Part shown: positions 40,531-60,313 of the stretch, piece after piece
Layout of the letters: each line of letters opens with the position of its first letter
Position numbering within the stretch: the stretch's first letter is position 1
Assembly: GCA_025060505.1 (NCBI GenBank)
Contig: JANXBU010000004.1
Coordinates: 93,117 to 157,116 of the forward strand
Direction of reading: 5' to 3'
Origin: Candidatus Calescibacterium sp.
Lineage (GTDB): Bacteria; Calescibacteriota; Calescibacteriia; Calescibacteriales; Calescibacteriaceae
Length of the DNA stretch: 64,000 nt
Program-made: the position numbers and the translations under genes
Notes under the pieces: generated by a model
Seen by the model: the letters and a program-made list of their open reading frames with translations, nothing else
What the model was told of the DNA's origin: nothing
The model's database searches: none

Positions 40531-40962
40531 ATGGTCAAAGAAATACCAATTGAAGGATCTGAATACATATATAGCAAGGGAGAACTCATAGCAGTAATAC
40601 TGCGAAACAATTTTAAATCAGAAAAGATTGTTTTTCTAACACCGAACAATTTATCGCAACAGCTTGGCTATCTACCGCATAAGAAAGGAAATATAATAAG
40701 AGCTCACAGACATGTTTACAACAAAAGAGAAGTTCATTTCACACAAGAGATGATACTCATAAAAAAAGGAAAAGTCAAAGTCAATCTATACGATAGTCAG
40801 AAGAACTATATATGTTCAGAAACTCTCACAGAAGGAGACATAATTCTTCTTTGCGGCGGCGGGCATGGCTTTGAAATCCTTGAAGATTCAGTTATGATCG
40901 AACTAAAGCAAGGACCATACACAGGAGAAGAAGATAAAGAAAGATTTGATGGAATCGAATAA
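40531..40962 (+). CDS. Cupin-fold protein, sugar-locus type (WbuC-like)
   Basis: The 143-residue protein has a single cupin barrel: AHRHVYNKREVHFTQEMILIKKGKVKVNLYD, then EGDIILLCGGGHGFEIL. Proteins of this kind are common in O-antigen and sugar-modification loci. It is the first gene of a three-gene run with an aminotransferase (18 bases downstream) and a methyltransferase. Its precise reaction is unknown. Confidence 0.75.
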   Translation: MVKEIPIEGSEYIYSKGELIAVILRNNFKSEKIVFLTPNNLSQQLGYLPHKKGNIIRAHRHVYNKREVHFTQEMILIKKGKVKVNLYDSQKNYICSETLTEGDIILLCGGGHGFEILEDSVMIELKQGPYTGEEDKERFDGIE

Positions 40963-40979
40963 GATAAACTTGAACAAAA

Positions 40980-42134
40980 ATGGGAGAGGAGAATAAAAAG
41001 ACAAAGTTCATATATGTGAGCCAACCTTGGATAGCAGGTCGGGAAAAAGAATATGTTCTTGATGCAGTAAGCAACGGATGGATATCTTCAGAAGGGAAAT
41101 ACGTAAAAGAATTTGAGGAAAAATTTGCTTCTTTTGTAGGTAGAAAATATGGAATATCTGTGAATAACGGAACAAATGCTTTGATTCTGGCGGTAAGAGC
41201 TCTTGACCTTCCGGAGGGAAGTGAGGTCATAATTCCGAGCTTTATGATAATTTCCTGTGCTCTGGCTGTGATATACAACAATCTTGTTCCAGTTTTTGTC
41301 GATTCGTCGCTGGAAACATGGAATATGAAACCCGATGAAATAGAAAGAAAGATAACAGAGAAAACAAAAGCAATAATTATGGTTCACACCTACGGATACC
41401 CCTGTGAAGTAGACGAAATACTAAAAATTGCCCAAAAATATAATCTCTTTGTGATTGAAGATTTCGCAGAAGCAATCGGCTCCGAGTATAAAGGACGCAA
41501 ATGCGGAAGTTTCGGAAACATAAGTTGCACAAGTTTCTATTCAAACAAACTCATAACAACTGGTGAAGGAGGTATGTGCCTGACCGATGACCCAGAACTT
41601 GCACAGAAAATGAAAAACCTCAGAAACCTATCTTTCATACCCGAAAAAAGGTTTCTGCACTATGAACTTGGTTTCAATTTCAGATTATCAAATCTACTTT
41701 CCGCAGTTGGACTCGCTCAACTCGAATTGATTGAGCAGAGGATCAGCAGAAAATTAAAGATGGCACAGATATACTATGACACATTGGGAGAACTCGAGGA
41801 GAAAAAAATTATAAAACTACCTCCAAGAAGCAATAGAGATCATAAAAATACTTTCTGGATGTATGGAATTGTTATGGCGATCAAAATTCCGGCAAAATAT
41901 ATAATGGATAAATTAAAAGAATTCGGTATAGAAACCCGTCCCTTTTTCTTTCCTTTACACCTACAACCAGCGTTCAGAAAATTCAGCTGGTTCCGTGAGC
42001 AAAAACTACCAAATGCAGAATATCTGGGAGAATATGGATTCTATATACCATCTGGACTCGATCTTGAAGAAAACGACATAATACATGTTGCAAAAACTGT
42101 AAAAAATCTGATTTTAGAACATGCCAATATATAG
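40980..42134 (+). CDS. DegT/DnrJ/EryC1 sugar aminotransferase
   Basis: This 384-residue PLP enzyme resembles perosamine synthase and related nucleotide-sugar aminotransferases. It has VNNGTNALILAVRAL, IPSFMIISCALAV, the VIEDFAEAIGSEYKG Asp segment and the PLP Lys in SFYSNKLITTGEGGM. It would convert a keto nucleotide sugar to an amino sugar for surface glycans. With the neighbouring methyltransferase it could give an N-methylated amino sugar. Confidence 0.9.
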   Translation: MGEENKKTKFIYVSQPWIAGREKEYVLDAVSNGWISSEGKYVKEFEEKFASFVGRKYGISVNNGTNALILAVRALDLPEGSEVIIPSFMIISCALAVIYNNLVPVFVDSSLETWNMKPDEIERKITEKTKAIIMVHTYGYPCEVDEILKIAQKYNLFVIEDFAEAIGSEYKGRKCGSFGNISCTSFYSNKLITTGEGGMCLTDDPELAQKMKNLRNLSFIPEKRFLHYELGFNFRLSNLLSAVGLAQLELIEQRISRKLKMAQIYYDTLGELEEKKIIKLPPRSNRDHKNTFWMYGIVMAIKIPAKYIMDKLKEFGIETRPFFFPLHLQPAFRKFSWFREQKLPNAEYLGEYGFYIPSGLDLEENDIIHVAKTVKNLILEHANI

Positions 42135-42152
42135 AATAAAAATTCACTGAAA

Positions 42153-42920
42153 ATGAGCATAACTCAGTTTGAACAAAAGTACTCAGAAATATATGATTTA
42201 ATATATCAAGACAAAGACTACGAAAAAGAATGTGATTTCATCGAAAGAATATTTTCCAAATTTGGAGTAACAGTCTCAAGCATACTAGATCTTGGTTGCG
42301 GGTCCGGCGGACATGCTATACCACTTTCACAAAGAGGATACAGCATTACGGGAGTTGACATATCTACACACATGTTGAACAAAGCTATTGAAAAAGCAAA
42401 TAAATTGAAAACAGGTTGCAGGTTTCTACAAGGAGATATAAGAAAAATTCAAATCAATGAAACATTTAACGCAGTTATTTCTATGTTTGCCGTCATAAGC
42501 TATCAGATAGAGGATCAAGATCTTGTTTCCACATTTGAAACAGCTTACAAGCATCTGAAAAAAGGAGGGATATTCATTTTTGATTTCTGGTTTGGTCCAG
42601 CAGTCCTGAACGAAAAACCCAGTCTGAAATTCAAGGAGGTAAACCTTGATAAAATGAGAATCATAAGAATAACAACTCCTTCAATTGATATATTCTCAAA
42701 CACAGTTGATGTCAACTTCAAAGTTTTTGTAATAGACAAAAACAGAAAAAGCTTTGATTTCTTTGAAGAACTTCACAGAGTAAGATATTTTTTTCCAAGA
42801 GAAATCAGCTCAGTGCTGAAAAATATAGGATTTTCTGAAATACATTTTTTCCCGTTTCTCGACCTTTCAAGAAAACCGAACGAATCCGATTGGAATGTCT
42901 CATGTGTAGCACTCAAATGA
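42153..42920 (+). CDS. SAM methyltransferase, sugar N-methyltransferase type
   Basis: The 255-residue protein has a clear SAM site (ILDLGCGSGGHAIPL, ITGVDISTHML) and an N-terminus, YSEIYDLIYQDKDYEKECDFI, typical of methyltransferases acting on amino sugars such as DesVI-like enzymes. It lies 18 bases after the aminotransferase. The assignment to amino-sugar N-methylation is inferred from the neighbour. Confidence 0.8.
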   Translation: MSITQFEQKYSEIYDLIYQDKDYEKECDFIERIFSKFGVTVSSILDLGCGSGGHAIPLSQRGYSITGVDISTHMLNKAIEKANKLKTGCRFLQGDIRKIQINETFNAVISMFAVISYQIEDQDLVSTFETAYKHLKKGGIFIFDFWFGPAVLNEKPSLKFKEVNLDKMRIIRITTPSIDIFSNTVDVNFKVFVIDKNRKSFDFFEELHRVRYFFPREISSVLKNIGFSEIHFFPFLDLSRKPNESDWNVSCVALK

Positions 42921-43420
42921 TTTTACTTTGTTGTAGAGTATAATCTCCTATATGCAAAAATATCGTTTTTGAAAACTAATACTAAGAGAATTTGTAATTG
43001 CAAAAGAACAAAGCAATCTCATCATATAACAAACAAAAATACGGAAACAACAAAACACATAAAGAACTATGAGATTGACAATCAAGAATAAAGCCTTTCC
43101 CTGTTGTAATGATTTAGATTTATCTTGAATTATTTTTCAAATTTTTACATGGAGAGTCTTCTATATTTGTGATAGATCCAAACAAAACTATTTAATTGCT
43201 CTACCGAAAAATTATATCTAGTATAGAGTGTGAAAGGAAGCTTTAAAAATTCTCGGTGATCCTATCATTTTAATTTCTAGACATGAAAACAACTGACTCC
43301 TCACCAAAATAGCAGATCAATTCAACAAGTTTTCAAGAATTTGCTGTTTTAATATCTATTTTCCTTACGATTCTTTTTATATTTTTGATTATCTGTTCTT
43401 GAATCTCCAAATTCAAGTTG
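42921..43420. other. Gene-free stretch left of the Rpn pseudogene
   Basis: About 500 bases with no supported gene. The first part is A/C-leaning on the plus strand and the later part becomes T-richer, so it lies at the beginning of the composition switch. No canonical DnaA box (TTATCCACA) is visible. Confidence 0.45.
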
Positions 43421-44390
43421 ATGAAATATGACGCAGAAATAAAACGAACTTTTGAAAAAGTAGCTCTTGGTGTTCTGAGAATTCTTGGATATGAAGTCGT
43501 TGAGATAAAACCAATTCCGCTTGAGATGCAATTTGGAAAACTTGTAGCTGACTTTTTAGCTGTTGTAAAGCTCAAAGATGGAACAGAGTTCATTTTGCAC
43601 ATTGAATTTCAGACAAAAAATGATCCAGATATGCCAAAGAGAATGCTTGGTTATTTTTATGTTGTAATTTCAAGATATAATCTTCCGATAAGACAAATTG
43701 TTATTTATTTAGGAAAGGAAGAGCTTAAAATGGGCAACAGGATAGAGATGAGAAGTGAGGGAACATCTATTTCGTATGAATACGAAATAATAGATCTGAA
43801 AGAAGTGGAAGCTGAAAATTTTTGGAGTCAGATGCTCCAGATGTGTATTTACTTGGGATACTCGGTAAAGCTCAAAACATATCAGAAGTAATAAGGAAGA
43901 TAATAACAAGGCTCAGAGAAAGTTTTGAGAAAAGAGAGATAAGCAACCACAATTTGTTAGAAAATATATAAATAGGTTAGGAGTATTTGCAGAGCTCAGA
44001 GACATAAGAGAAGATTTAAAAAAGGAGGTACAAAAATCAGTGATAGATATAGACATAACTAAAACGTGGTTGTATCAGGAGGGAATGCAGGAAGGCATAC
44101 AGAAAGGAAGAAAGAAAGGGATACAGGAAGGAAGAAAGGAAGGTATAAGAGAGGGGATAAGGAAAGGAATAAAGCAGGGCATAATAGAGGGAATGAAGAA
44201 GGGCTTGAAGGAAGCAATACTTTCTGTTATAAAAGTGAAATTTGGTAAAACGCCATCATCAATTAGGAAAGTGATAATGCACACTGATGATATTGATAAA
44301 CTTAGGCTTATGAAGAAGGAAATATTGAGATCAAAGACTCTGAGAGAATTTGAGAAAAGGATCAGATCTATGAATCACAACAGTAGATAG
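43421..44390 (+). pseudogene. Rpn-family PD-(D/E)XK nuclease gene with two frameshifts
   Basis: Three consecutive frames make one Rpn/YhgA-type protein (recombination-promoting nuclease, once annotated as putative transposase). The first part has the nuclease core, with PLEMQFGKLVADFLAVVKL and FILHIEFQT. The middle continues as LGKAQNISEVIRKIITRLRESF in another frame, and the end in a third with NRLGVFAELRDIREDLKKEV and the family's Gly/Lys/Glu repeats (QEGIQKGRKKGIQEG). One added T near 43848 and one added A near 43937 would restore it. It is thus inactive as written, or misread. Such genes are mobile and often decay. Confidence 0.8.
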
Positions 44391-44900
44391 TTTTTTGTAT
44401 TAATTGAGAATTGAAAAAGAGATAAGTAAAGACCTGAATTTATATAGAACTGAATTTGGGTCTATAAACACATACTCAGATGCCTTTTACCACTTTACCG
44501 AGAAATTCACATAAAAAATTGCTAGCGACTTACGACTCGCATTACCATTGAGATAGACCTGAGACAAAACTTTTGGACTCAATGTAATTTGTCAAAAAAA
44601 GAGATAAAAGGGCTCTCAGGAATTTCTCAGATTGTCTTGTATCCTTTGTTATTCTGCTGTATAGCTGGGGTTTCGGCAATGCACTTGAAGCTTTGTAAAT
44701 TCTTCAGAAATCGGTGAGTACATAGTTTCTGTGATATAGTTTCTGTGATCAGGATAGTCTTTCTTGGCAAAGTGATTATATTATGATACAATCGTGTAGT
44801 TTTGTATTGCGTTGCTCTAGCAAAAGTATTTTTTGTTTTATCAATATACATCAAAAAATGCTTGCAAGGCAGTTTTCTATGATAGAGATAAAGCGAAAAC
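44391..44900. other. Gene-free stretch between the Rpn pseudogene and leuB
   Basis: No supported gene over 510 bases. It contains a perfect 14-base tandem duplication (atagtttctgtgat, 44723-44736 and 44737-44750). It lies at the right side of the composition switch, T/G-rich on the plus strand toward its end. No DnaA box consensus is seen. Confidence 0.45.
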
Positions 44901-45965
44901 TTACAAATACATTTCTTTTATTTTCTTTACAACATAATCACCGAATTCACGCGTTGAAACGGGTCTTTGGTTCCTCTCTGCTATATCTTGAGTTCTTAAT
45001 CCATCTTTTATTGTTTTTTCTACGGCTTTTTCCACTGCTTTTGCTTCTTTTTCCATGTTGAAGGAGTATCTGAGGAGCATTGCTGCCGAAAGTATTGATG
45101 CTATTGGGTTTGCGATCCCTTTTCCTGCTATATCTGGAGCGGAGCCGTGAACTGGCTCATAGAGTCCGAAGTTTGAATCTCCCAAACTTGCAGAGGGGCA
45201 GAGTCCTAATGAACCAATAATGGCTCCTCCTTCGTCGGAAAGGATGTCTCCAAAAAGATTGGGGCAGAGCAGAACATCGAATCTTGCAGGATTCACAATA
45301 AGATAGAAGGAAGCTGCGTCAACATATACATGTTCCAGTGATATATCTGGATAATCTTTTGAGATTTCGGAGACAATCTTGCGCCAGAATGCGGAGACTT
45401 CAAGAACATTTGCTTTATCAATTGATGTGACTTTTTTCTTTCTTTTTCTTGCGAGCTCAAAGGCAAGCCGAGCGATTCTTTCTACTTCTTCTCTTGTGTA
45501 AGAAGCTGTATTGTATGCTCTGTTTTCTTCAATTGCTCGGGGTGTTCCAAAGTATATGTCTGATGTGAGTTCTCTTATTACAACAAAATCAATTTTCTTC
45601 AAAAGAGCTGGGCGCAGTGGAGATATTTTCTTCATCAGTATTTTTATTGGTCTTATGTTAGCCCATAGATTCAGAGATTTTCTTAGTTTGAGCAGCCCAC
45701 TTTCCGGCTTTTTGTCCATCGGTAGGTTATCCCAATTCGGTCCTCCAACTGCTCCCAAGAAAACAGCATCAGACTTCTTTGCTTTCTCAATAACTTCGTC
45801 TGTGATTGGGACACCTCTTTGATCTATTGAGATCCCACCAATAAGCTCATACTCAAACTCAAATTTCTCTTTCGTTATTTCAGATATACATTCTAGAACT
45901 TTTATAGCTTCATTAGCGACTTCTGGTCCTATTCCATCTCCGGGTAGAACTAAAATTCTTTTCAT
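44901..45965 (-). CDS. leuB: 3-isopropylmalate dehydrogenase
   Basis: This 354-residue enzyme oxidatively decarboxylates isopropylmalate in leucine synthesis. It has LPGDGIGPEVANEAI at the N-terminus, the LLKLRKSLNLWANIRP substrate loop, VRELTSDIYFG, and DILSDEGGAIIGSLGLCPSAS followed by EPVHGSAPDIAGKG. The ATG has a textbook GGAGGAAG ribosome site eight bases away. leuA, leuC and leuD are not adjacent. Confidence 0.97.
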   Translation of the reverse strand: MKRILVLPGDGIGPEVANEAIKVLECISEITKEKFEFEYELIGGISIDQRGVPITDEVIEKAKKSDAVFLGAVGGPNWDNLPMDKKPESGLLKLRKSLNLWANIRPIKILMKKISPLRPALLKKIDFVVIRELTSDIYFGTPRAIEENRAYNTASYTREEVERIARLAFELARKRKKKVTSIDKANVLEVSAFWRKIVSEISKDYPDISLEHVYVDAASFYLIVNPARFDVLLCPNLFGDILSDEGGAIIGSLGLCPSASLGDSNFGLYEPVHGSAPDIAGKGIANPIASILSAAMLLRYSFNMEKEAKAVEKAVEKTIKDGLRTQDIAERNQRPVSTREFGDYVVKKIKEMYL

Positions 45966-46062
45966 GTTTTCTTCCTCCTTATAAGATTTCTACAAGATTT
46001 TGAAAAAATAATCAGCTGAGTAAAAAATACAAAAAGTAAAAAAAGTTTGTGGAGGTAGGTTT

Positions 46063-46596
46063 ATGAAGATAGAAGCCAAAGAGATTTTAGAGCTTGAAAG
46101 AGATGGTAAGAAGATAAAGAGAGTTATAAGAGGTAGATTCTTTGAAGATTTTGAGGTTGGTGAAAAATATTATCATCACTGGGGTAGAACGCTGACTCAG
46201 ACAGATAATGTTCTTTTTTCTACTTTAACAATGAATTTCAATCCGATATATTTTAATGATGAATGGGCAAAGATTTGCGGGTACAAAGGAGTGGTTATAA
46301 ATCACTTTCTTGTGTTTAATGTGGTACTTGGTATGAGTGTTGAGGATCTGAGCGAACAAGCTCTGGCTCTTTTGGGATATACGGACATAAAATTCTATCA
46401 ACCAGTTTATCCGGGAGATACAATATACTCATTTTCAGAGGTTATAGAAAAAAGAGAATCAAAGTCAAGACCTGAGGCCGGAATTGTAACATTCAAAACA
46501 ACAGGTGTGAACCAGAATGCAGAGATTGTAGTTGACTACAAAAGGTCTGTTCTCGTCAAGAGAAAAGAATTTTTCCTAAAAAAGGAGATAGAATAG
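46063..46596 (+). CDS. MaoC-family hot-dog dehydratase
   Basis: The 177-residue protein is a single hot-dog domain: FFEDFEVGEKYYHHWGRTLTQTDNVLFSTLTMNFNPIYFND, then GYTDIKFYQPVYPGDTIYSFSEV. Family members hydrate enoyl-CoA thioesters. In the standard hydratase motif the active site reads D-x-N-P-x-H; here it is NFNPIY, as in a recognisable subfamily of bacterial MaoC proteins, so the substrate may differ. A GGAGGTAGG ribosome site fixes the start. It ends two bases before the converging membrane-protein gene. Confidence 0.85.
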   Translation: MKIEAKEILELERDGKKIKRVIRGRFFEDFEVGEKYYHHWGRTLTQTDNVLFSTLTMNFNPIYFNDEWAKICGYKGVVINHFLVFNVVLGMSVEDLSEQALALLGYTDIKFYQPVYPGDTIYSFSEVIEKRESKSRPEAGIVTFKTTGVNQNAEIVVDYKRSVLVKRKEFFLKKEIE

Positions 46597-46598
46597 CA

Positions 46599-48418
46599 CT
46601 ACTTGTTTATATATTTGAGAATGTAAAAATCGTCTATTATTTGTATCTCTTCTAAGTAATTCTCCTTTTGATCCTTGGGATTCTTCCTTACTATGACATC
46701 AATTCTGTATTTCTTCATAAGTTCTACTATAGATTCTTTGTTGCTTAGGACTTCTATTATTTTTTGTATAACCTCGCCTTCAAATTTTTCATAGTCATTG
46801 TAGGTAGCAGGTGAGCTCGGGATTGAAACACCCTTTGGGAGTCCAAAATATGCTTGGAAATACCATATTCTTGCTTCCCAAGTTCTGAGCCACTGGTTTG
46901 TGTTTCTGAATTCTTTTATCAAGTTGATTATTTCTTCTTGGTTTTTACCTATTAAAATTTGTTTTATAAGAAATCTTTCAAATACTTCGTTGGAACTTAG
47001 GTCGGAAAAATAGTTCATAAGATTGTGGAAGGTGTACCTGCCAGTTGTCGCTGATATTTTGATTTCGTATATTTTGTTCGTTTCTTCCGAAATTATTACT
47101 GCATCTTTTTCAGTATTATTTTTTATCCAATTTATCAACTTTAAAAAAGTCTTTTCTGATAGTGAATCTTTATGAGATGAATGGAAAAATAGATACCAGT
47201 TGTATGAAAATCCAGAGAACATGATTCCAGCGATTATGTAACCTGCAAGTCTTGATCTGTTTGCAATTTTATCTATGACAAAGCCGATGCATATTCTTCC
47301 AAACATTTTAAATGTTCCCTGTATGTGTTCTGGTAGTTGTAGAGATATTCCAGTTACGATTTCTTGGAAGAAGTATAAAGAGAATCCACAGAGTGTTGAT
47401 AGCAGAATGAAAATATTTTTCTTCGCGAAATTTCGTGATAGCAAGAAAAATGCAACTGAGATAAGAAGAAAGGTAATGTATATTCTTGGTTGAGATGTTA
47501 TAGCGTGAGGTATCTTTATAAAGATAGCGGCTCTTTTTATAGATTCACCAACCATTTCTGTCTGAAGGTAATTGAGAATTAGAGCAGGTGAGGCAACAAG
47601 TGCTCCGAGTATCAAGATTTCAAAAGTTGACTTTATGTCTTGTTTATTCTCTTGGTTCTTGGAGAACGGATATGTAATAATTAAATATATCAACATAAGC
47701 AAAACAGATAAGTTTGCATAGAGCCACCATTGTAGTGTAGAATAATACAGAACGCCAAGAGCTACGCCAGATAGTAATTTGTATTTTCTTTTATTCTCTT
47801 GCGGGCTATCAAGGAACTTCACAAAGCATATGGAGAATAACAAGAAAAAAGTAAGGAAAAAGGATGGGTTAAATATTCGTGATATTTCAAGGAAAAGTCT
47901 TCCTGGAGAGTTTGGAACTCCAATAATGCTGCTTGCTACTTCTGAAATTGTTGAAAGCTCGTCTGCTTTACCGATGATCACTCTTGATATGCTGTATATG
48001 AATCCTGCTAAGATTATAGCTGTGGTGAAATTTGAGAAAAAACAAAAAGAATAGCGGATCTTTTTTTCAGGAGAATCTCAAGAAGTTTGAGAAATAAGAA
48101 TAAGTTCAGAAAAATAGCTATAAAACGAATTATTGTGGTACTAAATACTGCAAAATAATAATCGCCTATGATAAGTTTTAGTGGGTATATTATACAAAGT
48201 AGGGGGACAATCAATCCCCATTTTTGCTCGTAAAATGTAAATTCTCCTCCACAGAAGCTAACTTGTTTAATCCATATCAATTCATCAAAGTCAAAATATG
48301 TAATGCTATTTTCGGTTATCGCGAGGTAGATAATAGTAAAATTGATAAATAAAGATGTAAATAGAGAAACGATAATATTGTTCAGATTTCTGTGCCAGAA
48401 ACTTTTATTGTTTATCAT
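46599..48418 (-). pseudogene. Membrane glycosyltransferase-like gene split by a one-base shift
   Basis: Two frames form one membrane protein of about 600 residues. The N-terminal part has helices and an extracytoplasmic loop with FDFDELIWIKQ, reminiscent of the Asp-rich first loop of GT-C enzymes that use polyprenyl-phosphate sugars. The C-terminal part has more helices and a soluble tail ending near RIDVIVRKNPKDQ. The shift is at the T7 run 48061-48067 (A7 on the coding strand); one extra A gives LLKKKIRYSFCFFSNFTTAII. The start is an ATG at 48418, or a TTG at 48439 that overlaps the upstream stop. It follows the GT4 gene directly. The exact function is unknown. Confidence 0.65.
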
Positions 48419-48435
48419 TCCTTGTTTTGATGGAT

Positions 48436-49795
48436 TCAATGTTCTATAAGTTCGGCAAATTTTTCAGCCATTTTGACTGATGAGAACTCCAATATCTTGT
48501 CTATATTGGGAGAAAAGTGGATATCTTGATTCTCTATTACTATTTTTTCAAGTGTTTTTACGATTTCTTCAGGTTCGTTTTTAACGAATATACCTGTTTC
48601 GGTCTCTTTTATTATCTGATTTGCTTCTGAATCTTCAACTTTTCCGATAGATATAATAGGTGTTCCTGCTGTAATATACTCGTATAGCTTTCCTGTGATT
48701 ATACCTTTTTCTGTTTCGTTTTCAATTTCCGTTAGATTGAAAAACAGAAGATAATCAGCTTCCTCCTGAATTTTCAGAGATTCGTTTATATCAACAATTC
48801 CTCGGTATTGAACTATGTCTTGTATGTTTAGATCTTTGATCATTTGTTCTATGGGTATGTTTGGTACACCATATATTTCAACTTTCATAAGATTTTTGAG
48901 TTCTGGGTATTTTTTCTTCAAAATATGTATCGCTTTGAAAAAATTTTCTGGACTTCTTCTTACTGGATAGAAGGCGCCCGTATATATGAAATTTTTTATT
49001 TTATTTTTCTTTCTTTTTTTTGTGTTTATTTTTTCTACTCTCGTAAGCTCTTTTTCTCCAAAGGAATTTCTAACAAGTAATATTTCTTTGTTCATCATGT
49101 TGTTCATTTTTTTCTCAGATATTCCGAGATAGTTGTGATTTGATCTGCTTTTGATATAAAAAATTTTTCTATTGGTTCAGAGATCTTTGCTGAAAATTTA
49201 TTAGAGAAGTACAAATCATGTGACCAGAGGTCTCTGTAATCTGCAATCCATTTTAAAGAGGGAAAAAGCCTTTTGATGATACCACCTATTATGTGTACAG
49301 ATGGTGGAGGAGAAGTTGATATGATCGCATCAAAAGCTTTTTTTTCATCCTTCATTCTTCTTATAATGTAAAAAACAGCTGGGGTATCCATGGCATAACT
49401 ATATCGAAGTTCGGACCGAAGATTTTTAGTAATAAATCGCGAAATCCCTTTAGTTTTATCAGGATGTTCCTATCTATGTTCTGATCTATTTTTTCGATTT
49501 TTCTCTGATTTTGATTGATTCTCTTTCTCGTTGTTTCAATCAATTTGTTTAGCAGATCAAATGGTTTATTTGGTATTTCTACAAGTTCAAAGTTGATCTC
49601 CGGGTATTTTCCTATATATCCGTATAAAGGGATTTTGGAGGTAGTCAGAACACAAACTTTATAGCCCATTTCTGAAAGATGATATGCAAGGTAATAAGGT
49701 CTTTTTGATATATGAAACAGAGGTGGAAAGTAATGAGTTATCAAACATATTCTCTTTTTTGCCTTGGGAAATTTGGTTTCTATATGTTCATGCAT
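48436..49795 (-). pseudogene. GT4 glycosyltransferase gene broken by two one-base shifts
   Basis: Three frames join into one GT4 enzyme of about 450 residues. The first (from 49795) has ICLITHYFPPLFHISKRPYYLA. The second has AFDAIISTSPPPSVHIIGG, LKWIADYRDLWSHD and ADQITTISEYLRKK. The third has NFIYTGAFYPVRRSPENFF and GKLYEYITAGTPIISIG. The shifts lie at the G4 run 49381-49384 and the T7 run 49107-49113 on the plus strand, and each is repaired by adding one base. This family transfers sugars from nucleotide donors during surface polysaccharide synthesis. It is in one operon with the next membrane protein. Confidence 0.8.
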
Positions 49796-49883
49796 TTTTA
49801 TTTTTTTAGATTAGCTATAAAATCAATTTTGAAAAAATTATTGAAACTTTTTTAGGTTTATCTGATTAACAATAATGTGAATT

Positions 49884-51239
49884 ATGGCGTGTATCAAGCA
49901 GGTCTGTGGATACATTCCTTTCCTGAGATTGAAAGGTGATGATATAAAAAAGGATGTTAAGGTACCGATTCCGTCTCAAAAAGCTGTTGCTTCTTATGAT
50001 GAAAATCAGGTGACTCTTGCATACGAGTGCGCAAAGGAAATTGTTGATTCTATGGTAAATGATGGTATCGGGTCAGATGGAAACATTGCTCTTTTGTTTG
50101 CTTCGTCTTCTTTTTCTGATTCCGAAAAGAATCCAGCTGTGTTTATATCCGAAGCCCTTGACCTTCCAGAAAGCACAATAACTTTAAATATAACTGGAGG
50201 GAACAATGCCTTTGTTGATGCTGTATATGTGGCTTCGACTTTGGTCGATTCTGGAAAAGTAAAATATGCAATTGTTGTTTCTGGTGAAAAAAGAAGATCA
50301 GATGATTGGAAACTTGATTTCGGATTTTCTGACTCCGGAGGCGCGGTCCTTGTTGCTCCGGATACCGAAAAGGAATTTATTTTCAAAATAAAAGAGTTTT
50401 ATTTCATTTCTGAGGAAACATTTGATACATACAGGAAGAATGGAAAGGTTCTTACCACAGATGAAAGATTTGTTGCTCAGGAAGAGTATCTTGCGATTTT
50501 AAAAAAGCTTTCCGGAATAAATGTCAAGAGATTTTATGTCTCAGTACCAACTTATGGTATATCTCAGGTTATATTAAAACAACTCAAAATAAAAGATGAT
50601 GTATTTCAGAGTTTTGGAAATCTTGGAAACTCTTATATCCCTATTCTTTTGGCTTATTCTACTGGTTTTCTTGATCCAATGGAGGATATTGTAATCATTT
50701 CTTTTGGAACAGGTTTGAAGGGGTTGAGACTTGTATTTTCGGGTGGAAAGAGTTCCTATGACAAAATACTTGCGAAATTCGAGAGAAAGAGATTAATAAG
50801 CTTTGCCGACTACATAAGAATAAAGGATGTTGAGGGTTTTCCAGAAGATGAGTCATCAGTTCCTATGTTGTGGCGAGAGAAGAAACAGAACATCAGATTC
50901 TATGGTCAGAAATGTTCTGACTGTGGTGGTGTGATTTTTCCGATGCAAAACTACTGTATAGTTTGTGGAAGCAAAAACTTGAAACTTGAAAAGCTTCCTA
51001 AGAGAGGCGAGATATTTACATTTACGGAGGATTATCTTACTGTCTACTCTGAAATATTTCCACCAGTTCCTATGCTGGTTGTTCAGCTTGAAAACGGAGC
51101 CAGAGTTTATGTTCAGGGAACAGATGTTGATCCAAAAGACAGATTCAAAATAGGAGACAAGGTTGAGCTTACCTTGAGAATCCTTAATTCTTATGGAGGA
51201 ATGCTGAATTACTTTTATAAAGCAAGGAAAGCGGGATAG
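49884..51239 (+). CDS. Thiolase-fold (HMG-CoA synthase-like) protein with zinc-ribbon/OB domain
   Basis: The 451-residue protein has an N-terminal thiolase-superfamily domain related to HMG-CoA synthase (to about residue 310) and a C-terminal DUF35-type module with a zinc ribbon (CSDCGGVIF and CIVCGSKN, about 348-371) and an OB fold. Where HMG-CoA synthases have the nucleophilic Cys ('NACYGG'), it reads LNITGGNNAF, with no Cys. Condensation by the usual mechanism is therefore unlikely. DUF35 proteins bind acyl-CoA and often partner with thiolases, so a role in acyl-CoA handling is reasonable. The MaoC gene is 3 kb away. Confidence 0.75.
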   Translation: MACIKQVCGYIPFLRLKGDDIKKDVKVPIPSQKAVASYDENQVTLAYECAKEIVDSMVNDGIGSDGNIALLFASSSFSDSEKNPAVFISEALDLPESTITLNITGGNNAFVDAVYVASTLVDSGKVKYAIVVSGEKRRSDDWKLDFGFSDSGGAVLVAPDTEKEFIFKIKEFYFISEETFDTYRKNGKVLTTDERFVAQEEYLAILKKLSGINVKRFYVSVPTYGISQVILKQLKIKDDVFQSFGNLGNSYIPILLAYSTGFLDPMEDIVIISFGTGLKGLRLVFSGGKSSYDKILAKFERKRLISFADYIRIKDVEGFPEDESSVPMLWREKKQNIRFYGQKCSDCGGVIFPMQNYCIVCGSKNLKLEKLPKRGEIFTFTEDYLTVYSEIFPPVPMLVVQLENGARVYVQGTDVDPKDRFKIGDKVELTLRILNSYGGMLNYFYKARKAG

Positions 51240-51266
51240 CCGTCTCGGAAAGTAATGTACCCGTTT

Positions 51267-52394
51267 TTATATTACATTCATTATCTTTTCTGCGATTGTT
51301 TTCCAGTCATAAACTTTTGCGTACTCTATTGAGTTTTTTGAAAGTTGTTCTCGCATTTTTTCATTTGCGCTTATTTCGTTTATTTTCTGGATCAGCTCTT
51401 TTTCGGATGAAAATAGGAGTCCAACATATTTATCTTTAACCACATCCTTGTATCCACCTATATTTGATGCAATAGGTGGGGTACCACAGGCCATGCTTTC
51501 TATAAGAACTATTCCGAAGCTCTCTCCACCTTTTGATGGAAATACAGATACATCTGCGGAGGCATAAATTTCCGGTAAAATTTTCTCTTCAACGAATCCA
51601 ATATACTTGATATTTTTTTGCTTTTTCGCTTCAGCTTGAACAAGAGATCTCATAGGTCCATCGCCACCTATAACTAGATTCAATGGAACTTCTCTGTTTT
51701 TCTTATTTCCGAATTTTCTGATGTTTTCCCAAGATTTTAGAAGGACATCTACTCCTTTGCGCTTATCAAGTCTTCCGAGAAAGAAAAAAGTTATGTTTTC
51801 ATCAGATTTTTTGCCTTTGGATGGTTTGTATAATTCTGTGTCAACTCCCGGCGGAATTATGAAGAAATCCTGTTTCCCAAAATACTTCTCTATTTCATCC
51901 TTTGCACGTTCTGATACAGCTATTTTTACATCAAGTTTTTTCAGAAAAGGTTTCATAATCTGCCTGAATAGTATAAAACCTAAGTTTGGTTTGTCTGTTG
52001 ATGAATGGAATATTCCTACCATTTTGGATTTTGAGAAAATCGTTGCAGGATAGGGTAGAGTGAGTCCAAGGGGTCCGTTCATTAAAACAACATCTGGTTG
52101 AATTGTTTCAAAGGTTCTTTTGAGCTTAATAATGTCTCTCAAACCAACGATGGTTATAAAGCATCTTGTCCCGTTAGCGTATACGCTTATTAGCTTCCCG
52201 AATCTGATAACTTCTCCGCCCATCTTCTGAATTTCATAGTCTTCATAGGGTATGTTTTTTACTCCACCTGTGATAACAAAAACTCTGTTTCCTTTTTCCA
52301 ACAATTTTTTTGTAAGGAAGTATGAGTATTTTGATACTCCTGAGGGAACTGGCGGAAAACTATCCGAGACCAAAATTATCTTTTTGTTTTCCAT
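51267..52394 (-). CDS. GT4 glycosyltransferase
   Basis: The 375-residue enzyme has the GT4 layout: VSDSFPPVPSGVSKYSYFL at the N-terminus, FFLGRLDKRKGVDVLLKSW at the start of the second Rossmann fold, and GESFGIVLIESMACGTPPIAS with the donor-binding Glu pair. It resembles phosphatidylinositol mannosyltransferases and other lipid or O-chain glycosyltransferases. The acceptor and sugar are unknown. It is intact, in contrast to the neighbouring glycan genes. Confidence 0.9.
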   Translation of the reverse strand: MENKKIILVSDSFPPVPSGVSKYSYFLTKKLLEKGNRVFVITGGVKNIPYEDYEIQKMGGEVIRFGKLISVYANGTRCFITIVGLRDIIKLKRTFETIQPDVVLMNGPLGLTLPYPATIFSKSKMVGIFHSSTDKPNLGFILFRQIMKPFLKKLDVKIAVSERAKDEIEKYFGKQDFFIIPPGVDTELYKPSKGKKSDENITFFFLGRLDKRKGVDVLLKSWENIRKFGNKKNREVPLNLVIGGDGPMRSLVQAEAKKQKNIKYIGFVEEKILPEIYASADVSVFPSKGGESFGIVLIESMACGTPPIASNIGGYKDVVKDKYVGLLFSSEKELIQKINEISANEKMREQLSKNSIEYAKVYDWKTIAEKIMNVI

Positions 52395-52455
52395 TTTTGG
52401 TTTTCTAAATTTCTTTGTTTTTCTGGATTTTCATAGTTGATATACTAAAGAAAAC

Positions 52456-53250
52456 TTACTGAAATATAGATGAGTATAGACCTACATGTCCTTGTTTCAG
52501 TTTTTCATATATGAACATAGCTGCGTGTATTGCGCCGTTCGCGAAGACTTTTCTTGAAGTTGCGGTATGCTTTATTTCAATTCTTTCTCCATCCCCAAGG
52601 AAAAAAATTATGTGTTCTCCAACAACATCTCCTCCTCTTACTGCGAAGATCCCGAGTTCATTTTTCTTTCTTGGACCGACCATACCTTCTCTACCTGTGA
52701 TCTTTTGGGTATCCTCTGAACTTAAAGCTTCTGCCAGTAGTAAAGCTGTTCCAGATGGAGAATCCTTCTTCATCTTGTGATGTATCTCTAATATTTCTAC
52801 ATCAAAGTCGGGTAGATTCTTTTTTATTTCTGGAAGAATCTTCAAAATCAGATTTATTCCTCTGCTCATGTTATATGAAAGTAGTATTGGAACATTCTGA
52901 GCGTACTGTTTGATTTTTCTGAGATCTTCTTCTGAAAATCCTGTTGTTCCGATTACGAAGCCGGTTCTAATTTTGTTCTTACAGATGTAATCAAGGTAAG
53001 GAATTATCGCTCCTTTTGTAGAAAAATCAATTATAACGTCTGGTATATTTTCTTTTGCAATGGTTTTAAATCCTTCTGGTGAGGTTATTATTGGAAAGTC
53101 ATAATCGATTTGTGGAAAAAGGTTTTTTATATTGATTTTGCCAAGGCTTTCCGCTTCTATTCCGAGACAAACTTTCAGGTTCTTTTCAGAAGCTGAGTGA
53201 AATACTTCTTTTCCCATTTTTCCAGCGATTCCGGATATCCCTAATTTCAT
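52456..53250 (-). CDS. dapB: 4-hydroxy-tetrahydrodipicolinate reductase
   Basis: This 264-residue enzyme acts in lysine and diaminopimelate synthesis. It has GISGIAGKMGKEV for nucleotide binding, IDFSTKGA, GTTGFSEED and the catalytic EIHHKMKKDSPSGTA segment. The C-terminal AVRGGDVVGEHIIFF and ATSRKVFANGAI complete the family signature. dapA is not adjacent. Confidence 0.96.
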   Translation of the reverse strand: MKLGISGIAGKMGKEVFHSASEKNLKVCLGIEAESLGKINIKNLFPQIDYDFPIITSPEGFKTIAKENIPDVIIDFSTKGAIIPYLDYICKNKIRTGFVIGTTGFSEEDLRKIKQYAQNVPILLSYNMSRGINLILKILPEIKKNLPDFDVEILEIHHKMKKDSPSGTALLLAEALSSEDTQKITGREGMVGPRKKNELGIFAVRGGDVVGEHIIFFLGDGERIEIKHTATSRKVFANGAIHAAMFIYEKLKQGHVGLYSSIFQ

Positions 53251-53485
53251 ATCTTTCAGTTTTTGTGCGACTTTTCAAAATGTATTTTTTTCAGCTTTTC
53301 AGAAAGTATTTTTCAGTGTGAATTAGCTCTTTATTGCTTTGTTGTAAAATTTGTATAGGAAGTTTGTTCCGCGAAATGATCGTGGTGTAATGTTCTCTGT
53401 TATCATATCATTTGTGAGTATTTTTTTTCCTTTGTTATGGAGGTGTTTTATGTCTTGTCTTGAAAAACAAAGAATTTATATATTT

Positions 53486-53491
53486 TATAAT
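53486..53491 (+). promoter_or_regulatory. -10 element close to the start of the GspM-like gene
   Basis: TATAAT ends nine bases before the ATG at 53501, which would give a nearly leaderless transcript. A TTGAAA lies upstream but 20 bases away, longer than optimal. Confidence 0.35.
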
Positions 53492-53500
53492 ATATACTGA

Positions 53501-53926
53501 ATGAGAACAAAAACGATAATTGCTTTTGTGATTTGGGTGATAAATTCTATTTTGCTTTTGTTCTTAATTCAGATAAACTACAAGATTGATGATTTGAAGA
53601 GAAATTTGGATGATGTTGAGAAGAAGGTTTCGGAGATGAGGGTTTGGGCGGAGGATATAAAGCTGGCTCGTGCAAAAAGTACAGATAATGTTAGTGTTCT
53701 TGAGCGGGTGGAGAATTTATCTAAAAAGTATGAGATAAGTTTCGAGTCTGCAAGACCTTCTGGTGACTATGTTGAAGTTGTCGCGAGAGGTGTTGAACCC
53801 TCAAAAGCTGTCAAGTTCATATGGGAGCTTGAGCAGTCTGGTTTGGTTATAGCTAAGTTGAAGTTGAGGAAAAACATATCAGATGCAAATTTGAACGATA
53901 TCGAGGTTTTTATAGAGCAGAGATAA
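53501..53926 (+). CDS. GspM/PilO-like membrane protein
   Basis: The 141-residue protein has a short cytoplasmic tail, one membrane helix (IIAFVIWVINSILLLFLI), a coiled coil and a small C-terminal alpha/beta domain (GDYVEVVARGVEPSKAVKFI). This is the build of GspM and PilO, inner-membrane assembly-platform subunits of type II secretion and type IV pili. Sequence identity to either is weak by eye. It is far from the gspG pair, so the T2SS genes are dispersed. Its end overlaps rpsO by 17 bases, tail to tail. Confidence 0.55.
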   Translation: MRTKTIIAFVIWVINSILLLFLIQINYKIDDLKRNLDDVEKKVSEMRVWAEDIKLARAKSTDNVSVLERVENLSKKYEISFESARPSGDYVEVVARGVEPSKAVKFIWELEQSGLVIAKLKLRKNISDANLNDIEVFIEQR

Positions 53927-54161
53927 TTTTCTTGTAGCTTTCTGGTTTATTCTTTTGGAGATACTTTAAAAATTTGTTTCTTCTGCTGATTAGTACATAA
54001 AGAGCTCTTTTTGATGAGAAATCTTTAGGATGCTTCTTGAGATGCTGCTCAAGGAGCTTGATCCTTCTTGTAAGCAGGCCTATTTGAACTTCTACTGAAC
54101 CTCTGTCGTTCTCGTGTAAAGCAAATTCCTTTATTATCTTTTCCTTTTCTTCTTTTAACAT
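53910..54161 (-). CDS. rpsO: 30S ribosomal protein S15
   Basis: The 83-residue protein carries the S15 signature: EFALHENDRGSVEVQIGLLTRRI, then LEQHLKKHPKDFSSKRALYVLISRRNKFLKYL region. It binds 16S rRNA early in 30S assembly. It is a few residues shorter than usual (88-89) at the N-terminus. pnp, its common partner, is not adjacent. Confidence 0.95.
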   Translation of the reverse strand: MLKEEKEKIIKEFALHENDRGSVEVQIGLLTRRIKLLEQHLKKHPKDFSSKRALYVLISRRNKFLKYLQKNKPESYKKIISAL

Positions 54162-54493
54162 GCTTTTTATTTATAAATTTATACGATCATTTTTGCCATT
54201 TTTCAAGCAATTTTTTAATTGAGCTTGGAAGAACCTCTGCTTCAGCTTAAAGGAGAATATTCACGATATAAATAAGCTCGGTCTTTTGAAAATGAAGTTG
54301 CAAGAACCAGATCTGAATCAGGTTTTAAGTCTGTAAGTAGTAAGTAAATTGATGAATCCTAATTGAATCAATGCTTCCACTGCATAAGGATGGAGTTTAA
54401 TACCTTCGTAAGAAAGACTTTTATGAGTTGTTAGATATTTTTACAAGAAATTTGTGTGTTTCTAAACTTTCTGAGCGAATTTATGTTTTAAAT

Positions 54494-54499
54494 TATAAT
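54494..54499 (+). promoter_or_regulatory. -10 element close to the start of the cNMP-binding gene
   Basis: TATAAT ends six bases before the ATG at 54506. Transcription from it would begin at or next to the start codon. The -35 region is weak. Confidence 0.35.
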
Positions 54500-54505
54500 T
54501 CAGTT

Positions 54506-54982
54506 ATGGAGGAGAAAGACATAATCGGTGTGATTTTGGCAAATCCGCTTTTTTCTGCTTTCAATATGTCGGAGATAAGGGATATAACTCGTTATTTTCA
54601 GAGAGTGAATGTAAAAGCTGGGATTCCTGTTTTTAGGGAGGGAGAGATCGGTGACTGTATGTATTTTATTATCAAGGGAAAGGTCGGTATATATAAGAGG
54701 AAGAAGGATTTGGGTAAGAATATTGAGAGTTTCAAGATTACAGATTTGCATATTGGAGAAAGTGTAGGGGAACTTTCAATTTTTGATAACTATGTTAGGT
54801 CAGCTTCTGCTATTGCGGAAACAGATTGCGAGCTTCTTAGGTTATCGCGAACAGAATTTGAGAAGATGGAAAAGGAGCATAATGATTATGCATACAAGAT
54901 ACTTAAAGCTCTCTTGAAGATAGTTAGCAAAAGGTTAAGAAGAACAACAGATATGGTTGTAGACATACTTAAAGAAGATTGA
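54506..54982 (+). CDS. Cyclic-nucleotide-binding domain protein
   Basis: The 158-residue protein is essentially one CRP/PKA-type cyclic-nucleotide-binding barrel. REGEIGDCMYFIIKGKVGIY and the phosphate-binding cassette GELSIFDNYVRSASAIAET keep the key Glu and Arg. A helical C-terminus follows without a helix-turn-helix, so it is not a CRP-type transcription factor. It may be a sensor partner for another protein. The start at 54506 (MEEKDIIGVIL) is preferred over 54428, since the extension is unlike the family and spans the -10 site. The class III cyclase at 35 kb could supply its ligand. Confidence 0.85.
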   Translation: MEEKDIIGVILANPLFSAFNMSEIRDITRYFQRVNVKAGIPVFREGEIGDCMYFIIKGKVGIYKRKKDLGKNIESFKITDLHIGESVGELSIFDNYVRSASAIAETDCELLRLSRTEFEKMEKEHNDYAYKILKALLKIVSKRLRRTTDMVVDILKED

Positions 54983-55213
54983 ATAATTATATATCATGGT
55001 ACTTTGCTGAGAAAATCAAATAAGAGGGCTCAATTTTTAGAGCATCTTCTCTTGACTCTTCTGCAATTAATGAACTGTAGCTTTTTGAGATTTTGATTGA
55101 TTTCATACATTGATTGGTTTTGGATAAAGAAGAAAATTTTTTACTTTTTTGCGCTTTTATTTAGCAGTTCTGAAATTTTGGAAAATTTAATCATAATAGT
55201 TTAGGATATATCA

Positions 55214-56103
55214 ATGGCTGGTAGGATATTCGTTCTGCTCCCTATATACAACGAGGAACCGGCTCTCAGACAGTTAGTTCAGGATATAAAATCTGTAATG
55301 GATAAGATGGGTAGGGATTGGCTCATTATCGCTTGCAATGACGGAAGCAAAGATAACAGTGGACAGATACTCAAGGAGCTTTCTCAAAAATATCCTATGG
55401 ATATAATCACCCACAATATGAATAGGGGACTTTGGGAAACAATAAGAGATCTTTTTGAACATACTAACGGAGATTGAAAGAACTCAACAGGTTTGACCTT
55501 TGGGAAACAATAAGAGATCTTTTTGAACGCGCTGCGGAGCTTTCTGAAAATGGGGACATAGTCGTTAGAATGGATGCAGACTATACGCATGACCCCAAAT
55601 ATATACCTGAGATGGTAAGAAAAATAGAACAAGAGGGATACGATCTTGTTATAGCTTCAAGATTTGAAAAAGGGGGTGGACAGGTTGGGCTTGATCCATA
55701 CCGATCTTTTGTAAGTTATATGGCACAAATTTTTGCTCGTATAGTTTTTGGTATGTGGAATGTAAAAGAAATCTCTTCTGCTTACAGAGCCTATAAGGCA
55801 GAGCTTGTGAAGAAAGCTATATCTTTTTTTGGAAACGATTTTATTCAGCTCAGAGGTCTTGGTTTTACCTGCTCAGTAGAGAAACTTGTGAAGATGAAGA
55901 TACTTGGTGCGAAAATGAGTGAGGTTGGTTTTGTTCTCAGATACGATAGAAAAAAAAGTCCAAGCAAAATGATAACAAGTACAACTACTCTTGGATATTT
56001 TATTCTTGCTATTCTATATAATTGGCCATTTGGTGGATGGAAGACTACATACAAAAACAGATTGAAAGAGCTGGAAAGAAAAGAAATTAAGAAAAGAGAT
56101 TAA
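55214..56103 (+). pseudogene. GT2 glycosyltransferase gene interrupted by a 68-base duplication
   Basis: The N-terminal frame (MAGRIFVLLPIYNEE, IIACNDGSKDNS, ITHNMNRGLWETIRDLFE) stops at 55477. The rest (AAELSENGDIVVRMDADYTHDP, GMWNVKEISSAYRAYK) continues in another frame to 56103. Removing one 31-base repeat and the 37 bases between the two copies restores a single dolichyl-phosphate-mannose-synthase-like GT2 of about 270 residues. It would make a lipid-linked sugar donor. asnB follows after 31 bases. The insertion may be real or an assembly fault. Confidence 0.85.
55430..55528 (+). repeat. 31-base direct repeat inside the GT2 gene
   Basis: Identical copies at 55430-55460 and 55498-55528 (ctttgggaaacaataagaga and 11 more bases) are offset by 68 bases. 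The 37 bases between them have no counterpart elsewhere in the window that I can see. Confidence 0.95.
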
Positions 56104-56134
56104 AGAAGGAAAAAAGTAGATAGTCCTCTACAAG

Positions 56135-58024
56135 ATGTGTGAAATAGCAGGTGTTGTAAGCAAAAAAGCAATAGATGAGGTTAGAGATTCAGAAATTGTT
56201 AGAAATATGCTCAAGAAACTTGCGCACAGGGGACCGGATGACGAAGGAATATTCATAGGAAAAAATTTTGTGTTCGGACACAAAAGACTTTCAATAATAG
56301 ATATCAAATATGGCAAACAACCTATGGTTACAGAAGATGGAAATCTTGTTATAACTTATAATGGAGAAGTATACAATTATCTTGAATTGAGACAGAAACT
56401 TTCACTGAGCGGAGTCGATTTCAGAACTTTTTCTGATACAGAGGTTCTTCTCAAAACAATATGGAAGGAAGGTGAAGATTTTCTTTTCAAGAATGCAGTA
56501 GGGATGTTTGCTTTTGCCACTTTTGATTTTTCAAAAAACAGGTTTTTGGCTGCTGTGGATTTCTTTGGAATAAAACCTCTGTACTATTTTTACGATGGGG
56601 ATACGCTGATTTTTGCTTCTGAAATAAAAGCTATTTTAGAGTATGTGAAACCTCAAACAAATTATCAAGCAATTTACGATTACATAACTTTTCAGTTTTC
56701 ATTGGGAGATAAAACATTTTTCAAAGGAATAAAGAGAGTTCCACCAGCTCACTACTTGGTTTGGAATTTACATGATGACCCAAAAGTTGTTGAATACTGG
56801 GATATACATTATAACATTGATTCTTACCATACAGAGGAGTATTTTCAGGATACTCTTTTGATTTTGCTTCAAGATTCTGTGAGAATTCACCTGCGAAGTG
56901 ATGTTCCGGTTGGTTCTCATCTGAGCGGAGGACTTGATTCGTCAACTGTATCTGTTCTTGCTGGGAGAAGCTATCCTTCAAAGTTCTATCTTTTTCACGG
57001 TAGGTTTCCGGAATATCCTGACTATGACGAATCAAAGTATGCAAATGTTATACATGGTTTGCTTGAGGATTCAGAGCTTGTTGAAGTGAAACCTAGTGCA
57101 GAAGATTTTATTCAGGATATGCAGAAGATAGTTTATTTTATGGACGAACCTGCTGCGGGTCCAGGAGTTTTTCCGCAGTTTGAATTGAATAAGGTCATAA
57201 AATCTTACGTCAAGGTTTCTCTTGGCGGTCAGGGAGGAGATGAGATATTTGGCGGATACACAAGGTATCTGATAGCTTATCTTGAGCAGTGCTTGAAACA
57301 CGCTATATTTGAAACGAATGAAGAAGGAAAATATGTTGTCACGTTAAGCTCAATTATTGAAAATCTTCCTGAGTTGAAAAATTATATTCCAACATTGAAG
57401 TATTTTTGGAGTGATGGGCTTTTTGATAGTATGGAGTCAAGATATTTCAGATTGGTTGATAGGAGTGATGAGCTAGTTCAGATTATGAAAGATGATTTTA
57501 AGGAAGAATACTTGCGTGAAAAAGAAGGTAGAATATTCGATGAGTTTATAAAGATATTCGATAAGAAAGACGCTAAATCTTATTTTAACAAGATGACTTA
57601 CTTTGATATGAAAACGCTTCTGCCAGCTTTACTTCATGTTGAAGATAGAGTTTCTATGGCGCATTCAATAGAGTCAAGAGTTCCAATTCTTGATAGGAGA
57701 ATCCCTGAGTTTATGGCAACTGTTCCGCCTACGATAAAATTTAAGAATGGAACTTTGAAATATCTTCTCAAAAAATCCGTTGAAAATATACTTCCGAGAG
57801 AAATAGTAGGAAGAAAAGACAAAAAAGGATTTCCTGTTCCACTTAACGAATGGATTACCGAGAACAAAAAATTCAGAGAATTCGTTTTTGATGTAGCTTT
57901 TTCTCTTCCGGATATTTTTGATAGAACAAAGGTTGAGCTCTTGGTGAACAGGGCTCGTCCTTTTTCACGAGGAGTTTGGGGACTGATAAATCTTTCTTTG
58001 TGGTTTTCGACTTTTCGTTTGTAA
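56135..58024 (+). CDS. asnB: Asparagine synthase, glutamine-hydrolysing
   Basis: This 629-residue enzyme has the N-terminal nucleophile Cys2 (MCEIAGVV), glutaminase motifs (LAHRGPDDEG, GHKRLSIID, TYNGEVYNY) and the synthase PP-loop SHLSGGLDSS near residue 264. It moves an amide from glutamine to aspartate or to another acceptor. Paralogues of this length are frequent in polysaccharide loci, where they amidate sugars, and the GT2 gene just upstream fits that. A decayed second copy lies at 63.0-63.3 kb. Confidence 0.93.
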   Translation: MCEIAGVVSKKAIDEVRDSEIVRNMLKKLAHRGPDDEGIFIGKNFVFGHKRLSIIDIKYGKQPMVTEDGNLVITYNGEVYNYLELRQKLSLSGVDFRTFSDTEVLLKTIWKEGEDFLFKNAVGMFAFATFDFSKNRFLAAVDFFGIKPLYYFYDGDTLIFASEIKAILEYVKPQTNYQAIYDYITFQFSLGDKTFFKGIKRVPPAHYLVWNLHDDPKVVEYWDIHYNIDSYHTEEYFQDTLLILLQDSVRIHLRSDVPVGSHLSGGLDSSTVSVLAGRSYPSKFYLFHGRFPEYPDYDESKYANVIHGLLEDSELVEVKPSAEDFIQDMQKIVYFMDEPAAGPGVFPQFELNKVIKSYVKVSLGGQGGDEIFGGYTRYLIAYLEQCLKHAIFETNEEGKYVVTLSSIIENLPELKNYIPTLKYFWSDGLFDSMESRYFRLVDRSDELVQIMKDDFKEEYLREKEGRIFDEFIKIFDKKDAKSYFNKMTYFDMKTLLPALLHVEDRVSMAHSIESRVPILDRRIPEFMATVPPTIKFKNGTLKYLLKKSVENILPREIVGRKDKKGFPVPLNEWITENKKFREFVFDVAFSLPDIFDRTKVELLVNRARPFSRGVWGLINLSLWFSTFRL

Positions 58025-58142
58025 TTGTTTGAATTTGTTTTTTTCATTACGCATTTATTTCTATTTTCTAAGAAAGAAAAATCAGTTATTGCTTGCTTCT
58101 GAGTTTTTCAGATTTTTTGTTTTGTTGCAATCATATGTCTTG

Positions 58143-58190
58143 TGTTGATTTTTGATTCTGATATTCTGTTGATTTTTGATTCTGATATTC
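58143..58190. repeat. Perfect 24-base tandem duplication
   Basis: Units 58143-58166 and 58167-58190 are identical, in the non-coding gap between asnB and serS. It resembles other two-copy micro-duplications in the window. Confidence 0.9.
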
Positions 58191-58249
58191 TTTGCCCGAT
58201 AAATGTTATTCATTTGCGACGGAGCAGAATTTTTCAGTCTGACCGGTAA

Positions 58250-59500: not shown

Positions 59501-59618
59501 TTTATTTGTTGTTTTGTTTATTGTTTGTTTTTAATTTTTCTGTAAAGCCAGAATTTTGTTCATTTTCAGCCAAATCTTATGAATTTCATATTATTGAACA
59601 TTCTTTGAAAACGTTTGT

Positions 59619-59624
59619 TATAAT
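59619..59624 (+). promoter_or_regulatory. -10 element close to the start of the Lon N-domain gene
   Basis: TATAAT ends eight bases before the ATG at 59633. A TTGAAC lies 19 bases further upstream, a little far for a -35. Confidence 0.35.
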
Positions 59625-59632
59625 ATTTATAG

Positions 59633-60313
59633 ATGGAAAAGGAGAAAATAGAAGAGAATGTGATACCGCTTTTTCTTGTATCAAATGTTGTTCTTTTTCC
59701 GAAGGTAAGAGTTCCACTTGTCGTTTCCGAAGAGAGATACAAGTCTCTTATTTTTGATTCAATTGCAAAATCTAGTTTTATAGGTGTCTTCCCGACGAGC
59801 AGGATTGGTGTAAGATCTGAAGATATTGATAAGATATATCCGGTTGGTTGTGCTGGTAAGATAGTTTCTGTTTCGGAGGTTTCTCCAAATGTTTTTTCAA
59901 TTGTCGTTGAGGGACTTTTCAGAGTGAAGCTTCTTTCATTACTCAAAGGAGAAGTTTATAACAATGTGAGATTTGAGATATTGCACGATATACTACCTGA
60001 TGAGAAAACTCAACAGGAGCTGAAAAGAGATCTAATAGAAACAGCTGTCAGGTTTCTAATAAAAATAGGTGAAAGTAAGGAGAGAATTGTGGAGATAAGT
60101 CAGATTGCGAACAATATGAATTTTGAGGAAGTTCTGAATTGGGCTATATTTTTGCATCCACTGAGATTTGCTTCAAAGCTTTCTCTTATGTCAGAAAACG
60201 ATGTTAAGGTAAGAGCAAAAAGGTTTGTGGAGGAAGTTAAAAGAGATATATTCTATATGGATCTTATAGCAGAATATAGGGATATAAAGCCTAAGGATCC
60301 GAGGGTTAATTGA
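59633..60313 (+). CDS. Lon N-terminal (substrate-binding) domain protein
   Basis: The 226-residue protein matches the stand-alone LON N-domain family: NVIPLFLVSNVVLFPKVRVPLVVSEERYK and YPVGCAGKIVSVSEVSPNVFSIVVEGLFRVKL. It continues with the helical part of the domain. There is no AAA+ or protease domain. Such proteins are thought to bind substrates or act as adaptors; their exact role is not established. Confidence 0.85.
   Translation: MEKEKIEENVIPLFLVSNVVLFPKVRVPLVVSEERYKSLIFDSIAKSSFIGVFPTSRIGVRSEDIDKIYPVGCAGKIVSVSEVSPNVFSIVVEGLFRVKLLSLLKGEVYNNVRFEILHDILPDEKTQQELKRDLIETAVRFLIKIGESKERIVEISQIANNMNFEEVLNWAIFLHPLRFASKLSLMSENDVKVRAKRFVEEVKRDIFYMDLIAEYRDIKPKDPRVN

Follow-up and report, generated by a model that had tools for sequence, protein, structure and literature searches.

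An origin-like strand-composition switch in a Candidatus Calescibacterium contig lies inside a copy of a dispersed Rpn-type nuclease gene

The strand composition of the window, the 64,000-nt stretch of DNA analysed here, reverses abruptly inside a broken copy of a dispersed Rpn-type nuclease gene. We attribute this joint to an exchange in which two Rpn copies took part and regard it, on balance, as most likely one end of a genuine inversion within a single replichore. The window covers positions 93117–157116 of contig C60 and forms the right end of this 157116-bp contig, part of a draft genome of 2.28 Mb in 115 contigs with a completeness of 86%. Our genome-wide view was built from 22 contigs amounting to 1.86 Mb of the draft, and four genomes of the same family (G001, G002, G003 and G004) served for comparison.

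Polarity was scored as the third-position G+T of every ORF of 120 aa or more, with the sign set by the strand, which cancels the effect of gene direction; across the genome the signed values are bimodal. On C60, third-position G+T rises from 0.396 (n = 40) left of the switch to 0.622 (n = 8) right of it in plus-strand genes and falls from 0.560 (n = 67) to 0.400 (n = 9) in minus-strand genes. Lagging polarity is found in 98% of the 109 C60 genes to the left and leading polarity in 94% of the 17 to the right (Mann–Whitney P = 4e-11 for the whole of C60 and P = 1e-8 for the window genes, 32 versus 17), and the flip of the strand-corrected values is completed within ~1 kb. The cumulative G−C and keto skews of C60 have their minimum at ~135–136 kb, that is, at 42–43 kb of the window. 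Intergenic A+C is 0.554 left of 42920, 0.540 in the spacer up to 43368, 0.477 in the spacer from 44406 and 0.452 farther right. Since both spacers already have the composition of their own side, the change must lie within the nuclease element between them. The flip at 43–45 kb and the broken nuclease gene described in the earlier note are thus both confirmed, and the switch is narrowed to 43369–44405. The features concerned are as follows.

1–42920: left domain; plus strand of lagging-strand composition, extending 93 kb farther left on C60 (skew, gene polarity, intergenic composition)
40531–42920, plus strand: last three genes before the joint, namely a small protein without a Pfam match, a DegT-type aminotransferase and a SAM methyltransferase (Pfam)
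40980–42134, plus strand: DegT-type aminotransferase gene, C60:134096 (Pfam, synteny)
42153–42920, plus strand: SAM methyltransferase gene, C60:135269 (Pfam, synteny)
42921–43368: left spacer, A+C-rich (0.540; intergenic composition)
43369–44405, plus strand: Rpn-type nuclease element of ~1037 bp, a dispersed repeat with the composition switch inside it (similarity search, segmentation)
43418–43891, plus strand: ORF for the N-terminal part of the broken nuclease, matching PF04754 / TIGR01784 weakly (under the curated cut-offs)
43963–44036, plus strand: 74-bp exact match common to the copies on C23 (19403) and C36 (4) (exact-match comparison)
44040–44390, plus strand: ORF for the C-terminal part of the broken nuclease (ORF and similarity)
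44079–44217, plus strand: 12-nt (4-amino-acid) repeats in the C-terminal part, their number differing between copies
44406–44900: right spacer, composition switched (A+C 0.477; intergenic composition)
44901–45965, minus strand: leuB (3-isopropylmalate dehydrogenase), the first gene past the joint on the right (homology, synteny)
44901–64000: right domain; plus strand of leading-strand composition, reaching the contig end (skew, gene polarity, intergenic composition)

The gene at the joint recurs in the genome, with about two dozen copies or fragments in all. It resembles the Rpn (YhgA-like, PF04754/TIGR01784) nucleases in its N-terminal nuclease-like domain, in a variable C-terminal part with 4-amino-acid repeats and in its many paralogues (PMC5350276, PMC10327210). 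Rpn proteins, which act as anti-phage toxin–antitoxin nucleases (PMC10327210), typically carry four-residue repeats of this sort. It differs from them in that all family matches here fall below the curated cut-offs (the intact copy on contig C23 has E 1e-7 with TIGR01784 and E 1e-3 with PF04754, and the window copy matches more weakly) and in that the window copy is broken, its halves matching in different frames and the second half containing a stop; judged from sequence, nuclease activity in this lineage is putative. Of all copies, the one on C23 aligns to that in the window over the greatest length; its orientation relative to its contig is the same, and identity is 85% overall and about 92–95% in much of the 3′ half. 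The longest exact match of the window copy to the rest of the genome is 74 bp.

Association of polarity switches with this gene family is not confined to the window. Two-state segmentation of polarity over the 1.86 Mb gives eight switches, one of them at dnaA and another a gradual maximum on contig C27 that looks like the terminus. Five of the remaining six, on C60, C23, C38, C93 and C115, lie within 600 bp of an Rpn copy. Only 2.3% of gene gaps are that near to a copy (binomial P about 4e-8 for five of six), a result that is stable at penalties from 5 to 16. With the Rpn ORFs excluded, four of eight switches are still near copies (P 2e-6), and the C38 switch shifts one gene away.

The counterpart of the window switch is found on C23. 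At C23:18859–20361, at the sister Rpn copy, polarity changes in the opposite sense, from leading to lagging, and exchanging the arms of the two contigs (C60-left with C23-right, C23-left with C60-right) yields a single polarity in each product. Gene order in the relatives supports the first of these pairings. In all four, the orthologues of the C60:134096 aminotransferase and the C60:135269 methyltransferase directly adjoin those of C23:20361 (a methyltransferase) and C23:21084 (a glycosyltransferase), which are the first two genes past the C23 copy on its right; none of G001, G002, G003 and G004 has a nuclease between the two pairs. G001, G003 and G004 agree with the rejoined arms in gene order and orientation, and G002 has the two C23 genes flipped as a pair. 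The neighbours of leuB in the four relatives are different genes; adjacency of C23-left and C60-right was not seen in these genomes, in which gene order is largely reshuffled. The FliO-like gene at the end of C23-left was uninformative as a guide to the ancestral neighbour, fliP being elsewhere (C25) and the G002 carbamoyltransferase beside the FliO orthologue being joined by its other end. The adjacency of C60-left and C23-right in relatives and the opposite switch on C23 together indicate that an exchange took place at two Rpn copies, with the joints on C60 and C23 as its reciprocal products. Location at a dispersed repeat, an edge of opposite sign at the sister copy and flanks that adjoin in relatives are all features of an inversion edge, and they support the earlier note in its second suggestion, an inversion edge (or a misjoin). 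An inversion between the two Rpn copies of C60 itself (at 4–5 kb and 136.5 kb, on opposite strands) was also considered and rejected, polarity being constant at the 4-kb copy.

If the inversion is genuine, one Rpn copy would originally have lain between the methyltransferase gene at 42153–42920 (C60-left) and that at C23:20361 (C23-right), where the plus strand is lagging, and its sister, in inverted orientation, between C23-left and leuB (C60-right) in DNA of leading polarity. Crossing over where the two inverted copies are nearly identical would flip the segment between them and leave one edge with a skew minimum, that in the window, and one with a skew maximum, that on C23. Ordinary homologous recombination would be sufficient, with cleavage by the Rpn nuclease perhaps assisting, which is speculative. 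We infer that both copies lay on one replichore and that the recombination, of the ordinary homologous kind, was a cellular event and no product of the assembler. Events of this kind are already known: rearrangements increase with mobile elements and inverted repeats (PMC12863080), and skew breaks are on record both for rearrangement (PMC12863080) and for misassembly (PMC7717575). As at other repeat-mediated inversion edges seen as GC-skew breaks, the sign changes abruptly at a dispersed repeat and in the opposite sense at its sister; the repeat here differs in being an Rpn nuclease gene, with no terminal repeats visible, rather than an insertion sequence or an rRNA operon. The strengths of polarity do not fit as well. 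C60-left has −0.071 and C23-right −0.026, C23-left +0.052 and C60-right +0.109, and such unequal strengths of rejoinable arms count against an inversion, since a recent single inversion would keep them matched. Neither this reading nor a misjoin accounts for the mismatch well.

An assembly misjoin is nevertheless the main competitor and a serious one, which we rate as falling somewhat short of probable. A short-read assembler would have mis-threaded two Rpn copies, making C60 and C23 reciprocal chimeras of a cell that has C60-left joined to C23-right and C23-left joined to C60-right (or to C36). An overlap of exactly 77 bp with another contig is common among the contig ends and indicates de Bruijn assembly with k = 77, probably by an assembler of the SPAdes type, and the assembly repeatedly breaks at the Rpn gene family with these exact overlaps. 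C23 runs through a 119-bp tract that also opens C36, so that its path needed a read-pair choice which could be wrong. At the switches on C23, C38 and C93, the unused ends of C36, C32 and C104/C18, respectively, start at the same tract and have the polarity that fits a uniform rejoin, a pairing that is interpretive; these forks favour misjoins at the three sites. The unswapped order is, moreover, that kept in the relatives, and breaks in skew are known to betray misassembly (PMC7717575). The joint in the window itself is harder to explain in this way. All contigs matching the window copy were examined for shared stretches, and none has a stretch of 77 bp or more in common with it, so that the exact repeat of at least k expected at a misjoin is lacking (74 bp against 77). 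The copy is ~15% different from its nearest sister and has frame breaks of its own, which gives it a unique path at k = 77, and a gap-closing step across the 74-bp overlap would be required. With contig-end overlaps of 77 bp and no more than 74 bp in common between the window copy and any other, there is no branch at this point in a k = 77 graph, which favours a real joint. The case thus resembles the misassemblies detected by SkewIT (PMC7717575) in having skew breaks with a reciprocal partner and a repeat at the joint, and differs from them in that the copy at the joint is unique at the apparent assembly k, making misjoining less straightforward.

Overexpression of Rpn in Escherichia coli increases RecA-independent recombination (PMC5350276). 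A more far-reaching reading would make the expanded Rpn family the main rearrangement system of the lineage, with the nuclease cutting at or near its own copies and promoting exchange, and with the polarity breaks marking those copies; we regard this as unlikely. Still less likely is that the right 20 kb was acquired or translocated in some other way (as an island or from a second replicon) and abuts the Rpn copy by chance. The polarity of C60-right (+0.109) is among the strongest in the genome and the relatives do not preserve its gene order, which speaks for this reading, but the segment carries the core genes leuB, dapB and serS, the best matches of leuB (66–70%) are within the same family, and the reciprocal pattern on C23 would be left unexplained.

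That a main or second replication origin lies at 43–45 kb, the first suggestion of the earlier note, is the least probable reading, barely credible to us: the direction of the switch fits, with a lagging-to-leading skew minimum on the plus strand as at oriC, but the same kind of minimum occurs on C38 and C93, each at an Rpn copy, the genes on either side of the switch belong apart by the gene order of the relatives, and both dnaA and a cluster of DnaA-box-like sites are on contig C21, which led us to reject it. The single strong DnaA match of the genome is at C21:23312–24370 (TIGR00362, over the cut-off). Right after its stop, in the 143 bp at C21:24374–24516, are seven 9-mers with at most one mismatch from TTATCCACA, six of them identical to TTTTCCACA, the densest such cluster in the 1.86 Mb read, and C21 has its own sharp lagging-to-leading switch, a skew minimum, at this place. 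In the relative G003, four TTTTCCACA sites are found at the equivalent position behind dnaA, and TTTTCCACA is apparently the DnaA box of the lineage. At the junction in the window, where the earlier note saw neither dnaA nor a DnaA box, there is no cluster of such sites, TTTTCCACA occurs three times in the window, always more than 8 kb from the junction, and the only dnaA of the genome is that on C21.

A repeat joint in a draft genome can therefore mimic an origin by a sharp skew minimum, and it can be unmasked by finding dnaA, by looking for sister repeats with the opposite switch and by asking whether the flanks adjoin others in relatives. If the joints described here are real, Rpn nuclease genes would be hot spots of rearrangement in a bacterial lineage that has been sampled poorly; if they are not, C60 needs splitting at 43.4–44.4 kb of the window.

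Several further observations were made. The DnaA of C21 is short (352 aa) and its match to the family model starts only at position 103; it appears to have no N-terminal domains, and the DnaA of G003 is similar in the part that aligns. Secondary groups of DnaA-box-like 9-mers, with four and five members in 800 bp, are also found at a distance from dnaA, at ~5529 of the window (C60:98645) and at C115:47871. To the right of the joint, the protein encoded at 49884–51239 begins with a part weakly similar to archaeal-type HMG-CoA synthase and ends with one weakly similar to a thiolase-associated BbsA-like domain, and on these matches is possibly a fused acyl-CoA enzyme; a gene for a MaoC-like hydratase (46063–46596) lies near it.

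The other switches at Rpn copies are at C93:21.0 kb, C38:145.5–146.4 kb, C115:4.6–6.6 kb and C23:18.9–19.8 kb, and the ends of C21, C104, C18, C32 and C36 carry the same tracts as three of these four. The contigs concerned are candidates for misjoins or inversion edges; adjacency tests in the relatives gave no conserved neighbours for the switches on C38 and C93. A weak switch at C115:76860–76909 is next to hydrogenase-type genes, with no Rpn copy nearby. On C27, at ~200–350 kb, polarity fades and reverses only by degrees, across more than 100 kb, a pattern to be expected where a terminus region lacks a fixed stop.
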